A DNA stretch of 48,102 nt from Anaerolineae bacterium (GTDB taxonomy: Bacteria > Chloroflexota > Anaerolineae > Anaerolineales > Villigracilaceae). This document shows, one piece after another, positions 14,825 to 22,389 of the stretch (position 1 is the stretch's first letter; each line of letters opens with the position of its first letter). The notes under the pieces were generated by a model, which did no database searches, was not told the DNA's origin, and was given only the letters and a program-made list of their open reading frames with translations. The stretch lies in contig JASJYH010000010.1 of NCBI GenBank assembly GCA_030123675.1, positions 1 through 48,102 on the forward strand, given 5' to 3'. Position numbers and translations under genes: made by a program.

Positions 14825-15388
14825 ATGAAAACAGCATTACTCCTGATCGACATTCAGAATGATTACTTTCCCGGCGGTAAAATGGAATTAGAGGGGCCGC
14901 TTGAAGCAGCAAAACTGGCCAACGAACTGCTGCAATGCTTCCGTGACAACAATATGCCTACCGTGCATATACAACATGTTTCCCAAGAACCAGATGCCAC
15001 CTTCTTCATTCCTGGTGATCGCGGCACCGATATCAACGAGACAACTGTCCATTACGAAGGTGAGCCCTTGGTCCAAAAGCATTATCCCAATGCCTTCAGG
15101 GAAACCGATTTGTTGGATTTGTTGCAGAGTTGGGATATCGACCGTGTCCTCATCACTGGCATGATGACTCATATGTGTGTAGACGCCACTGCCCGAGCCG
15201 CTGTGGATTTAGGTTTTAAACTTTTGGTCGCTGAAGATGCTTGCGCTACGCGTGCACTAACATTTGGTGATACCACCATCCCGGTAGCACATGTCCACAA
15301 AGCCTTTTTAGCGGCTTTGAAATCATATGGTCAGGTCCTACCGGTTACGAAAATCCTCGCCCAATTGGGATTGGAACAGGGTAACTAA
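14825..15388 (+). CDS. Isochorismatase-family cysteine hydrolase
   Basis: A cytoplasmic amidohydrolase-type enzyme of the isochorismatase/nicotinamidase superfamily. The triad is visible: Asp in LLLIDIQNDYF (about residue 9), Lys in QKHYPNAF (about 83), and Cys in MMTHMCVDATAR (about 118), with the preceding cis-peptide region. Length 187 is usual. The substrate cannot be told; nicotinamidase is possible, but the metal site typical of that branch is not obvious. It shares one base with the M48 protease gene that follows (TAATG), so the two are co-translated. Confidence 0.88.
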   Translation: MKTALLLIDIQNDYFPGGKMELEGPLEAAKLANELLQCFRDNNMPTVHIQHVSQEPDATFFIPGDRGTDINETTVHYEGEPLVQKHYPNAFRETDLLDLLQSWDIDRVLITGMMTHMCVDATARAAVDLGFKLLVAEDACATRALTFGDTTIPVAHVHKAFLAALKSYGQVLPVTKILAQLGLEQGN

Positions 15389-16509
15389 TGACAACTATCG
15401 ATGCTGCTCGACAAGAACAAGCCAAACAATATGCCCAAATCCGACGCCGTTTGTGGTTGGTAAGCAATGTTCTCGGTGGCGCCTATGCGCTGACCTGGAT
15501 TTTTTCAGACTGGGCTATAAATTTACGCGATTGGCTATCAACAATTTCCTCACATCCCTGGTTCACAGTTGCCGGATTCATTACCATCTTCGGTGGAATG
15601 TATGCCATTGCCACTCTGCCGTTGACCTACTACAGTGGATTTTTCTTGCCCCACCATTTTGACCAATCTGCCCAGTCGTTCAAAGACTGGATCATCGACC
15701 AGCTGAAAGGATTAGCGATCGGTCTACCGCTTGGCTTGCTGCTGCTCGAATTGCTCTACCTGGCCTTACGCCTCACCGGCGATCTATGGTGGCTGTGGGC
15801 TGCAGGAGGCATGTTGATTTTCAGCGTAATTTTGTCAAATCTTGCTCCGGTTCTCATAATGCCTCTCTTTAACAAATATGTTCCTTTGGATGATGAACAT
15901 CAAGATCTTGCAAATCGTTTGCTCAAGCTCGCAGAGAAGGCCAATACCAAAGTCCGCGGGGTCTTCAAATTTGACTTGTCCCGTCAGACAAAATCTGCCA
16001 ATGCCGCGCTGACTGGTATCGGCAACACGCGCCGCATTATTCTGGGCGACACGCTCATCAATGAATTTAGCGCCGACGAGATCGAGACCATACTTGCCCA
16101 TGAATTAGGCCATCACGTCCACAAGGATATACCCGTCATGATCACGTTCGGCACCTTGTCGATAACCTTGGGCTTATTTTTGGCTTCCCTGGCATTGAAT
16201 GTTGCAATTGGATTTTTTGGCTTCACAGGCCCAGCCGATGTAGCCGCAATGCCTGCATTAGGACTTATCCTGGGCATATATGCAGTTGTCACTATGCCGC
16301 TGGAGAATGCGGTTTCTCGTTGGCGTGAGAATATGGCGGATGATTATGCCTTGAGAAGTACAGGCAAACAGGAGGCCTTTGCATCCGCTTTTAAGCGACT
16401 CGCGAATCAGAATTTAGGTGAAGTTGATCCGGAGAAATGGGTGGTATTCTTATTTTATTCACATCCGCCGCTGGGGAAACGCATAGCCAAGGCGGAAAAC
16501 TGGAAATAA
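15388..16509 (+). CDS. M48-family zinc metalloprotease, Ste24/CAAX-protease-like
   Basis: An integral membrane zinc protease. The zinc motif HELGHH lies near residue 230 in ILAHELGHHVHKD, and the third ligand Glu is in ENMADDYAL near 310. About six to seven hydrophobic segments surround them, the first near residues 45-60, with a large N-terminal portion like that of Ste24. Length 373 is close to bacterial Ste24-like proteins (about 400). The role is probably membrane-protein quality control, since prenylation is not known in this group. It is coupled to the hydrolase gene by a 1-bp overlap. Confidence 0.9.
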   Translation: MTTIDAARQEQAKQYAQIRRRLWLVSNVLGGAYALTWIFSDWAINLRDWLSTISSHPWFTVAGFITIFGGMYAIATLPLTYYSGFFLPHHFDQSAQSFKDWIIDQLKGLAIGLPLGLLLLELLYLALRLTGDLWWLWAAGGMLIFSVILSNLAPVLIMPLFNKYVPLDDEHQDLANRLLKLAEKANTKVRGVFKFDLSRQTKSANAALTGIGNTRRIILGDTLINEFSADEIETILAHELGHHVHKDIPVMITFGTLSITLGLFLASLALNVAIGFFGFTGPADVAAMPALGLILGIYAVVTMPLENAVSRWRENMADDYALRSTGKQEAFASAFKRLANQNLGEVDPEKWVVFLFYSHPPLGKRIAKAENWK

Positions 16510-16640
16510 CTTCGAGCGCGTAAAGAGGCCCGGCTGCGCAACAAGTACCCTGCCTATATTTCTAGGTACAAAACCAGCCATTTCGGCGATACACTCCTGA
16601 ATGGTCAGAGCTATACTGACCTCGTATATAGGAGGCACAT

Positions 16641-17540
16641 ATGAGTAAGAATATATTGATCGAACTATCTGACGCACTAGCCGATGCAGCTGAGCGCGCA
16701 GGTCAATCGACGGTTTTGGTCAACGCCCGTCGACGAATTCCTGCCAGTGGGATTGCCATAGCAGCCGATTTGATTTTGACCGCCAACCATGTTGTCGAGC
16801 GAGATGAAGACCTGAACGTTACGCTTCCAGACGGGAGCGAGTTGTCTGCTACCGTTGCCGGGCGCGATCCAGGCTCCGACCTGGCACTACTTAAATTAGA
16901 GCGTGCGGCGGCCACAGCGGCCGAACCGACAAAGACCCCAGCTCGTGTTGGGCAAATCGCTTTGGCTCTCGGACGGCCTACCACTGGAGGCATTCAGGCT
17001 AGCCTTGGGGCAGTCAGCGCCATCGACGGTCCCTTCCGGACCCATCACGGCGGACTGCTTGAGCGAACCATGCGTACCGACTGCATTCCCTATCCTGGCT
17101 TTTCAGGCGGCCCACTGATCGCAGCCGATGGCACAGTGCTTGGTCTCAACACCTCTGGCCTGACGCGCGGTGCGGCGATTACCATCCCGACTGACATTGC
17201 CTGGAGTGTAGCGGAAACGCTAGAAAAACACGGGCATATTCGCCGTGGCTATTTGGGTATCCGCAGTCAAACGGTAGAAATTCCTTCTGATGCGCAAAAA
17301 TCTTTGAAACGGAAGCAAACTAGTGGTCTGCTTATTGTAGGCGTTGAGAAGAAAAGTCCCGGTGCCAAAGGCGGTTTAATAGTCGGTGATATTCTCGTGG
17401 GTGTCAAGGGCTCTCCAATCAGTCATCACGATGAGCTGTTTACCCATCTTACCGGTGAGGTGATAGGGAAGTCTACAGCCATTGACGTGCTACGCGGCGG
17501 CAAGCTTGAATCTATCGATGTGGTAATAGGGGAGCGTTAA
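16641..17540 (+). CDS. Trypsin-like serine protease with PDZ domain (HtrA-like, no signal peptide)
   Basis: The HtrA/DegP-type catalytic triad is intact: H50 in LTANHVV, D80 in GSDLALL and S155 in GFSGGPL. A PDZ domain follows from about residue 210, with RGYLGIRSQ and the carboxylate-binding-like GLLIVGVEKKSPGAKGG segment. No signal peptide or membrane helix is visible at the N-terminus, unlike ordinary DegP, so it should act in the cytoplasm. Length 299 is short for HtrA. The ATG at 16641 follows TAGGAGG. The next gene, a second protease, starts 1 bp after the stop. Confidence 0.88.
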   Translation: MSKNILIELSDALADAAERAGQSTVLVNARRRIPASGIAIAADLILTANHVVERDEDLNVTLPDGSELSATVAGRDPGSDLALLKLERAAATAAEPTKTPARVGQIALALGRPTTGGIQASLGAVSAIDGPFRTHHGGLLERTMRTDCIPYPGFSGGPLIAADGTVLGLNTSGLTRGAAITIPTDIAWSVAETLEKHGHIRRGYLGIRSQTVEIPSDAQKSLKRKQTSGLLIVGVEKKSPGAKGGLIVGDILVGVKGSPISHHDELFTHLTGEVIGKSTAIDVLRGGKLESIDVVIGER

Positions 17541-17541
17541 G

Positions 17542-18174
17542 ATGGACTTGACCACAACTTTCACTCAATCTTTGGATGAGCTCATCCAGCAGGTAATGCC
17601 GTCATTGGTCGTCGTGCGTGGCCGTCGCAGGGGCGCAGGCGCGGGGTTCATTTGGAGCTCCGACGGACTGATCCTGACAAACAGCCATGTAGTCGGCCGG
17701 CATGCGCCCAAGTTGATATTACAAGATGAACAAGAGTATAAATCCCAACTGCTAGCACGCGACCCCAACGTAGATCTGGCCTTGCTGTCAATTAAAGCCT
17801 CGGGCCTAACTCCACTCGAACCTGCTTCTGTCTCGCCCCGTGTGGGTGAGATGGTATTTGCTTTCGGCCACCCATGGGGTCAGCGCAACTCCGTTACAAA
17901 GGGCATTGTCAGCGCATTGATGAGCGCACATACCCGCCGGAAAAAGCAGCAATTCCCTGTTATTCGTTCTGATGTGCCTCTGGCTCCCGGTAACTCGGGA
18001 GGCCCATTGGTCAACATGCGTGGTGAGATGATCGGTATAAACGCAATGATCATGGGTGGCGACCAGAGTATCGCCATCCCTGCATCCGTAGTAGTCGAAT
18101 TTGTAGACCGATTCATTTCGAAAAAAAGTGGGAAAGCACATCGAGATAAGTACATCCCGGAAGGCGTGCTTTGA
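17542..18174 (+). CDS. Trypsin-like serine protease without PDZ domain
   Basis: A compact HtrA-type protease domain: H49 in LTNSHVV, D78 in NVDLALL and S152 in PGNSGGPL. It stops shortly after the protease fold, so the PDZ domain is absent. There is no signal peptide. Length 210. It follows the PDZ-bearing protease by 1 bp and shares its stop region with the TTG start of the next gene, so the three are almost certainly co-translated. It may be a partner or a substrate-independent copy of the first protease (inference). Confidence 0.87.
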   Translation: MDLTTTFTQSLDELIQQVMPSLVVVRGRRRGAGAGFIWSSDGLILTNSHVVGRHAPKLILQDEQEYKSQLLARDPNVDLALLSIKASGLTPLEPASVSPRVGEMVFAFGHPWGQRNSVTKGIVSALMSAHTRRKKQQFPVIRSDVPLAPGNSGGPLVNMRGEMIGINAMIMGGDQSIAIPASVVVEFVDRFISKKSGKAHRDKYIPEGVL

Positions 18175-18782
18175 TCCGTGTCACGATCGTCTCACCTAAT
18201 CCTGCGCTACGGATTGGTTTGAGAGAACTACTGAGCGACAATACAGATATCAATGTTACTGGCGAGTCGGCAGACCTGGACGAATTAGATCTGATGTCCA
18301 AAAAGACCGAGGTTCTTATTTTGGCCTCGGTCTCTCCTTTTCCCGAATTAGAAGAAGAAAGTCCTGCTATTCTATTACTTACAGATGATTTTGAAGATGT
18401 ACAATTAATGGTAGGGAAATCGGAACGTGTCTGGGGTGCCTTATCTCCACAAGTTGGCGAGGACGAATTGGTTGCTGCGATTAAGGCACTGGGAGAAGGA
18501 CTATGGGTAGGCTCACCCGCTCTCGTTAAAGGTTTGATGAACATTTCAAATCAGATTGAACTGGTCAATGAGGGAGAATTGCCAGAACCCCTAACGCCCC
18601 GCGAGATTGAAGTGTTGCAATTGGTCACACAAGGGTTAGCCAATAAACAGGTTGCATTGTCTTTGAACATTAGTGAACACACGGTAAAATTTCACCTTTC
18701 CTCCCTTTTTTCGAAATTGAATGCGGCCAGCCGTACCGAAGCGGTTCGGGTCGGTCTGAGCATGGGCTTGATTTCTCTCTAA
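18171..18782 (+). CDS. NarL/LuxR-type regulator with degenerate receiver domain
   Basis: The C-terminal LuxR helix-turn-helix is canonical: LTPREIEVLQLVTQGLANKQ and ISEHTVKFHLSSLFSKL, near residues 142-186. The N-terminal half keeps the receiver length and pattern but not its chemistry. The acidic pair is Ser-Pro (IVSPNP), the phospho-Asp position is Ala (LILAS), and the switch Lys is replaced in WGALSPQ; only the Thr (LLTDD) remains. It should therefore not be switched by phosphorylation. The TTG start overlaps the stop of the protease gene. The output gene set is unknown. Confidence 0.85.
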   Translation: MIRVTIVSPNPALRIGLRELLSDNTDINVTGESADLDELDLMSKKTEVLILASVSPFPELEEESPAILLLTDDFEDVQLMVGKSERVWGALSPQVGEDELVAAIKALGEGLWVGSPALVKGLMNISNQIELVNEGELPEPLTPREIEVLQLVTQGLANKQVALSLNISEHTVKFHLSSLFSKLNAASRTEAVRVGLSMGLISL

Positions 18783-19635: not shown

Positions 19636-20190
19636 ATGGTCAAGAAAATTTTTAGTTGGTTGATTTCGCCTCTTGGTTGGATTAGCCTTCTAATTCTTGC
19701 TTTGATCGTTTTTAGCGGCATTATTTGGGGAATCAACCTAACACAAATCACACCTGAACAGCCAATCGAGTTTCCACATGATCGCCATATTAGTTTCGGC
19801 ATTCAATGTTTGTATTGTCATCAGGGCGCCTCGCGCGGACCAGTAGCTGGCTTGCCGACCCAAACGAAATGCTGGGGCTGTCATCAACAATTGGGTATCA
19901 CCAAAACCAGTGTGCTTTTGAAGCCGCTGGTTCAGGCAATTGAAAAGAATGAGCCAATTCAGTGGATACCAGTAGCGACTGTACCAGACTTTGTAAAATT
20001 TAATCACCGTCCACATATTGCTGCGAGCCTTAATTGCGAGGCCTGTCATGGTGATTTGAGCAAGTTAACTATCTATGAGAATCCGCAAATCTTGAATATG
20101 GGTTGGTGTTTGGACTGTCACGTAGAGAAAGCTGGCGACGATTATGAAAAACTTGTCAAACTTACAGACTGTGGAACCTGTCATTATTAG
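19636..20190 (+). CDS. actA: ACIII subunit A, membrane-anchored pentaheme cytochrome c
   Basis: This is an electron-carrying subunit of Alternative Complex III, a quinol:electron-acceptor oxidoreductase. One N-terminal membrane helix (about residues 10-32) is followed by five CxxCH heme sites: CLYCH, CWGCH, CEACH, CLDCH and CGTCH. Additional His residues (FPHDRH, FNHRPH) can serve as distal ligands. Length 184 and five hemes match ActA. It is the first gene of the operon, 21 bp before the B1 subunit. The ATG follows TAGGAGA. Confidence 0.9.
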   Translation: MVKKIFSWLISPLGWISLLILALIVFSGIIWGINLTQITPEQPIEFPHDRHISFGIQCLYCHQGASRGPVAGLPTQTKCWGCHQQLGITKTSVLLKPLVQAIEKNEPIQWIPVATVPDFVKFNHRPHIAASLNCEACHGDLSKLTIYENPQILNMGWCLDCHVEKAGDDYEKLVKLTDCGTCHY

Positions 20191-20211
20191 ACCGGGCGAA
20201 AGGATTTATTA

Positions 20212-22389
20212 ATGAAAAAGAAGATTTCCCGGCGTGATTTTCTAAAACTGGCTGGCGCAAGCGCGGCAACTGGGGCCGCATTAACTGGTTGTGGTCCTTC
20301 ATCGCGTTTCGTGGTGCGTGAGCCATATACCCAAATGCCAGAATATGCGTTAATCGGGGAAAGTACTTTTTATGCCACCACCTGCCGTGAATGTGCGGCG
20401 GGCTGTGGCTTGATCGTTAGGACCTTTCAGGGACGCGCCATCAAGGTCGAAGGCAACAAAAATAATCCCGTCAATCTAGGCAAAACTTGTGCGCGAGGCC
20501 AGGCTACGTTGCAGGGGCTTTACAATCCAGACCGCGTTACCGATCCTCTCAACCAAGGCCGCCGAAAAACCCTTGGAACCGATGGCATGAATTGGGATGA
20601 TGCCATTAAAGTAGTATCCGATGCTCTGGCAAACACCGACCCTGCTGGAATTGGATTCTTACTGGGTATGGCTCCTGATCATCTTTTCGACCTGGTTTCT
20701 GACCTGACCGCAGGCATCGGTGCCCCTGCACCTGTCCGTTACGGGGCCTTGAGCGCATTTGAAGCACGTGCCACGCTAGTAAAAGCTGCGGAAAACGTAC
20801 TCGGACAGAGCGGCCTACCTTTCTTTGACCTGGCTAATGCCGAGCTAACCTTCTCATTTGGTGCAAACTTCCTAGAGACTTGGCTTTCACCCGTGGCATA
20901 TACTCGTGGATTTTCAAAAATGCGTAAACAAGGTAAACGGGGCTATCTCGTGCAATTCGAACCACGAATGTCGCAGACGGGCGCCAAGGCAGACGAATGG
21001 ATTCCGGTTCGTCCAGGCACCGAAGGCATGGTTGCACTGGCATTGGGTAAGCTAATCGCTGAATCCAAAAAACAAACCGTACCTAGGGCGTTTGTGAATG
21101 TAGACGTAAAAGCTGTTGCAAAAGAATCTGATGTAGATGAAGAGAAGCTGCATTATCTGGCAGATCTCTTTGCTGACGCGGATCGTGCTCTTGCTATTCC
21201 TGGTGGCGCGGCTCTCGGGCAAAGCAATGGATTAGGCACAGCCGAAGCTGTTTTGGCACTAGACGCCCTAGCTAATAATTTTGGCCAGCCTGGGGGCGTG
21301 TTCCTATCCCCTGCTGCCCCAACAGAAGATAATGTTCATCGGCCAGCGAGTTTGCAAGAAATGGCGGTTTTCATTAATAAGATGAACACTGGTGAGATTA
21401 AAACCCTCCTCATACATGGCGTCAACCCAGTCTTTGAACTACCCAAGTCGCTGGGATTTGAAGCAGCCTTAAAAAATGTTCCATTGGTTATTTCGTTTTC
21501 GACCTTCCCTGACGAAACCGCCATACTATCTGACTATATATTCCCAGATCATCATGGATTGGAATCATGGGGTTATCAGCGTGTTGCAACCGGGACTAGC
21601 CAATCAACGCTCTCGGGTGCACAGCCAGTAGTCTCTCCGTTCTACAATACACAGTCCACTGCTGATGTACTCCTAGCGGCCTCGGCTATTGCGGGTGGCA
21701 AGCTGGCTTCAGTACTGCCCTTCAAAGACGAAGTTGAATACATTCAGGCACAGTTAATCCCATTAATTGAGAATAAGGATGCTAATTTCAACGCAGGTGA
21801 GATCAACTCATTTTCAGCTTATTTCCAGCAATTCGGTGGTTGGTGGACAAACGAAGCAGCCCTTCTAGCCCCAACCCAAAATACCTTAAACGAGACACTC
21901 TCGGTGGAATCCCCCACATATGAAGGCGAAGGTGATTTCTTCTTGGTGCCATTTGTCTCACCTGTTTTAGGGGAGGCAGGGGCCAATAAACCCTCGTTAC
22001 AGGAAGTCCCAGACCCGACCACTACTGTTATGTGGAATTCATGGGTTGAAATCAACCCCGAAACAGCCCATGAATTTGGGATCAAAAGTGGCGATATTAT
22101 AAAAATTGTCTCAAATGTCGGCGTAATTGAGACATCTGCTTATTTGTACCCGGCAATTCGTCCGGATACAATCGCGATCCCCTTCGGGCAAGGTCATAAG
22201 GCGTACGGCCGTTACGCGGCAGGACGTGGCGTAAATCCTTTCGACTTGCTTGGTCTAAAGTTTAACGCAGCCGGAGATATAGCTTTTGCTGGTATGAAAG
22301 TGCAAATCATAAAGACTGGCAAGAAATTTGAGCTCGCCAGGATGGAAAGCGAAATTGGTGTGTATGGCGAAGGTTTGGGAGAGGAATAG
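20212..22389 (+). CDS. actB1: ACIII subunit B1, molybdopterin-oxidoreductase-like protein with intact 4-Cys motif
   Basis: This is the large exported subunit of ACIII, related to the DMSO-reductase family. A Tat signal (SRRDFLKLAG, residues 6-15) ends in a lipobox, LTGC27. Residues 58-93 carry C58-x2-C61-x3-C65-x27-C93, the [4Fe-4S] motif of catalytic family members. In the ACIII B1 proteins I know of, this region has lost the Cys residues. The C-terminal Moco-type beta domain (NPETAHEFGIKSGD, about 617-630) is present. Whether pterin is bound cannot be told. Length 725. It is separate from the Fe-S subunit, which follows by 10 bp, unlike the fused ActB of Flavobacterium. Confidence 0.87.
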   Translation: MKKKISRRDFLKLAGASAATGAALTGCGPSSRFVVREPYTQMPEYALIGESTFYATTCRECAAGCGLIVRTFQGRAIKVEGNKNNPVNLGKTCARGQATLQGLYNPDRVTDPLNQGRRKTLGTDGMNWDDAIKVVSDALANTDPAGIGFLLGMAPDHLFDLVSDLTAGIGAPAPVRYGALSAFEARATLVKAAENVLGQSGLPFFDLANAELTFSFGANFLETWLSPVAYTRGFSKMRKQGKRGYLVQFEPRMSQTGAKADEWIPVRPGTEGMVALALGKLIAESKKQTVPRAFVNVDVKAVAKESDVDEEKLHYLADLFADADRALAIPGGAALGQSNGLGTAEAVLALDALANNFGQPGGVFLSPAAPTEDNVHRPASLQEMAVFINKMNTGEIKTLLIHGVNPVFELPKSLGFEAALKNVPLVISFSTFPDETAILSDYIFPDHHGLESWGYQRVATGTSQSTLSGAQPVVSPFYNTQSTADVLLAASAIAGGKLASVLPFKDEVEYIQAQLIPLIENKDANFNAGEINSFSAYFQQFGGWWTNEAALLAPTQNTLNETLSVESPTYEGEGDFFLVPFVSPVLGEAGANKPSLQEVPDPTTTVMWNSWVEINPETAHEFGIKSGDIIKIVSNVGVIETSAYLYPAIRPDTIAIPFGQGHKAYGRYAAGRGVNPFDLLGLKFNAAGDIAFAGMKVQIIKTGKKFELARMESEIGVYGEGLGEE

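Follow-up and report, generated by a model that had tools for sequence, protein, structure and literature searches.

A three-gene operon in the window (the whole stretch of DNA analysed here, a contig of 48,102 nucleotides from a 2.83-Mb Chloroflexota genome) encodes a protease with a PDZ domain, a PDZ-less protease and a NarL-type regulator. This gene cluster recurs together with its operator in Chloroflexota and two other phyla, suggesting that protein quality control is tuned here by a circuit not yet described. All features of the cassette lie on the forward strand. The gene of the first protease (299 aa) occupies positions 16641..17540 and follows a ribosome-binding site read from the sequence (AGGAGG, 16630..16635). 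The gene of the second protease (210 aa) occupies positions 17542..18174, and that of the regulator (203 aa, with a TTG start) positions 18171..18782. The open reading frame coordinates give a 1-bp gap followed by a 4-bp overlap, in agreement with the tight packing described in the sequence-only reading of this DNA. In the part of the literature that was covered, no account of the protease-regulator pair was found.

The Pfam matches of the two proteases, Trypsin_2 and PDZ_2 in the first and Trypsin_2 alone in the second, bear out the initial assignment of both as HtrA-type enzymes, one with a PDZ domain and one without. The trypsin fold with the His-Asp-Ser triad, a criterion of HtrA/Do proteases (MEROPS S1C), is present, and the C-terminal PDZ domain, another criterion of this group, is found once in the first protease and not in the window's second. 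The triad of the first protease (H50, D80 and S155 in the window) is intact in 88/88 family members, a set that three loci of one family (f30) entered via the second protease, with the triad intact there too. The triad of the second protease is intact in the window and in 61 of 62 members overall, the remaining one being truncated. The PDZ binding loop, RRGYLGI in the window, is conserved in the first protease. Ser155 of this enzyme stands in the context YPGFSGGPL, compared with the usual GNSGGP, and its Phe is almost invariant among family members.

HtrA proteases are known chiefly as exported or membrane-anchored enzymes. Inspection of the window proteases and their orthologues showed no signal peptide, as had been proposed from the window alone, and no export signal or membrane anchor. 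In many orthologues the open frame starts just 10-16 aa ahead of the protease core and thus leaves no room for a signal peptide, and no strongly hydrophobic N-terminal stretch was seen in the orthologues examined. Scores against NCBIfam TIGR02037 are 170 and 154 bits, short of the curated cut-off of 416 bits. Judged by their sequences, both proteases are divergent HtrA relatives. The AlphaFold2 model of the first protease had a pLDDT of 49 and was left out of the analysis.

The only Pfam match of the regulator is the GerE domain (PF00196, E 1.8e-22); neither Response_reg nor an autoinducer-binding N-terminal domain was matched in this protein. Its best sequence and structure matches are regulators of the NarL/FixJ types (ChrA, LiaR, VraR and NarL), and its top Foldseek matches are likewise NarL-type regulators. 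In the AlphaFold2 model (pLDDT 80) the core strands of the receiver are retained, helices 2 and 3 are absent, and the six C-terminal residues are without secondary structure. On this model, the N-terminal part of the regulator is predicted to be a degenerate receiver. Alignment of the window receiver showed that the Asp pair is replaced by S-P (IVSPNP), the phospho-Asp by A (VLILAS) and the Lys by S (WGALSP), while the Thr position is retained. The receiver described at the outset as dead is therefore dead in the window by all three replacements, and the suggested loss of phospho-control extends to the family, in which the full phosphorylation-site set was found in none of the 81 regulators examined (0/81).

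The cassette regulators form one clade, separate from 43 other NarL-type proteins (SH-aLRT 97). In the early branches of this clade the regulator lies upstream of the protease, and a few of these early members retain either an Asp pair, whose alignment register is uncertain there, or the phospho-Asp. Thus, decay of the receiver seems to have come after the association of regulator and protease arose. A regulator of the same clade, ending in GLIIL, was also observed at L282 1535-2188, with no HtrA within the surrounding 9 kb.

The association of the genes was analysed in 400 Chloroflexota genomes, which were searched with the regulator and with the first protease; the latter was found in 112 genomes at E <= 1e-50. 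Eighty fetched loci, seven from a separate genome scan and the window made up 88 first-protease loci. The regulator is adjacent in 79/88 of these (72 downstream, 7 upstream and 9 not found), counts that, like those of the regulator tails given below, are not independent because the regulators form one clade. Three of the nine loci without a regulator stop at a contig edge soon past the second protease, and five of the remaining six belong to family f30. These five loci (L101, L108, L110, L112 and L121) carry the HtrA pair with no adjacent regulator, and the palindrome described below is strong in two of them and weak in three. A regulator acting in trans in f30 was considered and rejected, as the nearest NarL proteins of these genomes have intact receivers. 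From the regulator side, all of the top 30 homologues in the phylum (30/30) adjoin an HtrA gene; elsewhere, too, the genes are not independent. The protease-regulator association is far from chance. The genes therefore belong together across Chloroflexota, as the initial reading had expected. The order of the trio, which it had called fixed, is not strictly so: the second protease is optional and absent in about a quarter of the loci (those of the genera nearest to the window, among others), and in seven of the 79 loci the regulator is upstream.

A translated search of plasmids also recovered this pair from Deinococcus sp. KNUC1210 and Rubrobacter indicoceani. The regulators of both lack the full phosphorylation set and end in GLLSV and GLITL, respectively, and the palindrome before the HtrA gene is strong in Deinococcus and weaker in Rubrobacter. 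The HtrA-type protein of the Rubrobacter plasmid (NZ_CP031116, L289 3483-4442) has lost the His, the Asp and the Ser and keeps the PDZ loop RRGYLGI, and an intact trypsin-like protease follows the regulator. This triad-less, PDZ-bearing protein, a single case, is what would be expected if the first HtrA protein had a binding function.

A conserved operator, which had been suggested as something to look for near the trio, was found in the form of a 20-bp, lux-box-like palindrome, ACCTRSYCRWWYGRSYAGGT, which in most loci lies ~100 bp ahead of the protease gene. Palindromic EM of 70 upstream regions, a set that included the window and left out its closest relatives, gave 563 bits, compared with 50-58 bits for shuffled sequences. 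The palindrome scores above all 100 shuffles in 73/87 loci, a count that takes in the loci used to train the matrix, and it is also present in loci outside the motif search, namely in 11 close relatives of the window, in Deinococcus and in Rubrobacter. The window copy, site 1 (CCCTGCCTATATTTCTAGGT), lies at 16548..16567 and was identified by the palindromic EM with its shuffle control. A degenerate site 2 (ACCAGCCATTTCGGCGATAC) lies 25 bp past site 1, at 16573..16592. When the window's upstream region was aligned with those of 12 relatives, a strongly conserved block emerged, which takes in site 2 and has a CTATACT -10 box at its end (TATACT, 16612..16617). In other loci a weaker second site is often present at about +23/+24, and a TAnnnT box lies 63-65 nt past the start of site 1 in 35/80 loci. 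The palindrome stands between the regulator and the HtrA gene in 6/7 of the loci with an upstream regulator, which assigns the site to the promoter of HtrA.

The two sites would be centred near -66 and -42, assuming the usual start about 7 nt past the -10 box, and no good -35 hexamer is recognisable in the promoter. Because of these two features, we infer that the layout is that of an activator. A 20-bp palindromic box at the target promoter is thus present, as in LuxR-type systems, and the cassette regulator is its putative binder. Counts of the operator pattern in the window's genome and 26 relatives were near those of a reversed-pattern control, and therefore no wider regulon is claimed; the other tandem-block matches inspected are apparently intragenic or lack the first site.

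The C-terminus of the regulator is a candidate PDZ ligand. All cassette regulators (79/79) end at one fixed distance from the recognition helix, the tail length measured from an anchor pattern being 33, with 5/79 read as 15 where the anchor also matches a later TEAVH. The tail G-[LWIVY]-[ILV]-x-hydrophobic occurs in 78/79 cassette regulators vs. 1/42 other NarL-type proteins, and the single control with such a tail is itself a degenerate-receiver relative (L202/L282). In the window this tail reads G-L-I-S-L-COOH (codons 18765..18779). Position 0 is L in 66/79 and hydrophobic in 78/79, position -1 is variable, and position -2 is I, L or V. As GL[IV] ahead of the end is general among NarL proteins, what sets the cassette apart is only where the protein stops and which residue comes last. 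Recognition of hydrophobic C-termini by HtrA PDZ domains depends chiefly on positions 0 and -2 (PMC8545111). The frozen hydrophobic tail of the regulators fits such a ligand by its sequence, and it might instead pack on another partner.

Taken as a whole, the cassette is best explained as a self-contained circuit that regulates cytoplasmic protein quality control by feedback, an explanation that we hold to be evenly poised between right and wrong. The data support the gene coupling, the lost phosphorylation residues, the intact triads, an operator that precedes the HtrA gene with constant spacing to the -10 box, and the frozen C-terminus peculiar to the cassette. The regulator, which would not respond to phosphorylation, would bind the tandem palindromes at about -66 and -42 as a dimer, and the bound regulator would activate the HtrA promoter and hence the whole operon where the genes are co-transcribed. 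Through its PDZ domain, the first HtrA protein would recognise the regulator by its free hydrophobic C-terminus and sequester or degrade it, so that the putative effect of this binding is inhibitory. Misfolded or cleaved proteins would fill the PDZ domains and free the regulator, resulting in more HtrA, and their clearance would turn the circuit off. The earlier proposal that proteolysis or protein binding drives the regulator has gained support from the hydrophobic C-terminus, the operator before the protease gene and the triad-less, PDZ-bearing Rubrobacter protein, and we still infer it from sequence.

The same operator and gene coupling alone could account for the co-occurrence if the regulator controlled the HtrA operon and took its own signal from elsewhere, either from something that the degenerate receiver binds (a small ligand or a partner) or simply from its own abundance. 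The proteases would then be mere output and the tail would have no PDZ role. Degenerate receivers can serve as ligand or partner domains, and the receiver core strands are retained in the model. However, the frozen stop and the hydrophobic last residue, which are absent in ordinary NarL proteins, are left unexplained, as is the PDZ domain kept in the triad-less Rubrobacter protein, and we consider this account unlikely, if worth keeping in view. It is distinctly improbable that the tail is instead an activating ligand, by which the C-terminus of the regulator would turn on the protease to cleave another target or the engaged regulator itself. Such a signal would be permanent, because the regulator is usually made from the protease's own operon, and the first Rubrobacter protein has no triad, although in that plasmid an intact second protease lies after the regulator. 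The chemistry is nevertheless known from DegS and AlgW, for which the C-termini of outer-membrane proteins are activators (PMC8545111), and the triads are invariant in Chloroflexota. That the genes are functionally unlinked, two generic HtrA genes that happen to adjoin a NarL gene in decay, is hardly credible: both families are common, but the association is kept across many families and three phyla, with one regulator clade and a conserved operator. An anti-phage system was also considered and set aside, as PADLOC gave only domain-level matches, and a search for an RNA element found none.

As a putative feedback circuit, the cassette has its closest functional analogues in DegS and AlgW (with RseA and MucA), in which a single-PDZ HtrA protease is tied to a transcription response, as proposed for the cassette, and its PDZ domain reads hydrophobic C-termini. 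However, those proteases are membrane-anchored and periplasmic and act on an anti-sigma substrate, whereas the cassette protease is predicted to be cytoplasmic and is co-encoded with a DNA-binding regulator. The cassette protease shows no membrane anchor, and the partner conserved beside it is a regulator with a GerE domain instead of an anti-sigma factor. The regulator resembles the NarL/FixJ proteins (ChrA, LiaR, VraR and NarL) in its predicted fold and its GerE DNA-binding domain, but it has neither the phosphorylation-site residues (acidic pair, phospho-Asp and Lys) nor, in the model, receiver helices 2 and 3; its C-terminus is fixed and hydrophobic, and the cassette contains no histidine kinase. 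The sequences place the cassette proteins among divergent relatives of HtrA and NarL, which lack certain hallmarks of their families: export in the former and the phosphorylation site in the latter.

The lux box is a 20-bp ACCTG-N10-CAGGT-like dyad bound by GerE-domain dimers. The cassette shares with LuxR systems the 20-bp dyad geometry and a site near -42, but its regulator has no autoinducer domain. Several heat-shock regulators are under feedback from their own protease or chaperone, such as sigma32 with FtsH/DnaK, HrcA with GroEL and CtsR with ClpC. The proposed logic of the cassette is similar, with a quality-control machine titrating its own regulator. However, the proteins are unrelated, and the proposed contact in the cassette is between the HtrA PDZ domain and a C-terminal tail. 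Tentatively, and with somewhat less than even confidence, the cassettes may represent an undescribed class of cytoplasmic stress sensor that three or more phyla possess and whose HtrA PDZ domain would read the C-terminus of a phosphorylation-independent regulator and report the misfolded load to its own promoter, the HtrA protein of some lineages being a pure sensor without protease activity. The cassette offers a complete candidate circuit (sensor/protease, regulator and operator) from a phylum that is large and little studied, with signatures precise enough for in vitro tests, and shows how a response regulator may trade phosphorylation for protein binding.

Two further gene groups were observed around the cassette. 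Genes for a multihaem cytochrome c and molybdopterin/Fe-S oxidoreductases at window positions 19636-22389 resemble an alternative complex III cluster and apparently have no relation to the cassette. Directly 5' of the cassette, at 15388-16509, lies a gene for an M48 (CAAX-type) membrane protease.
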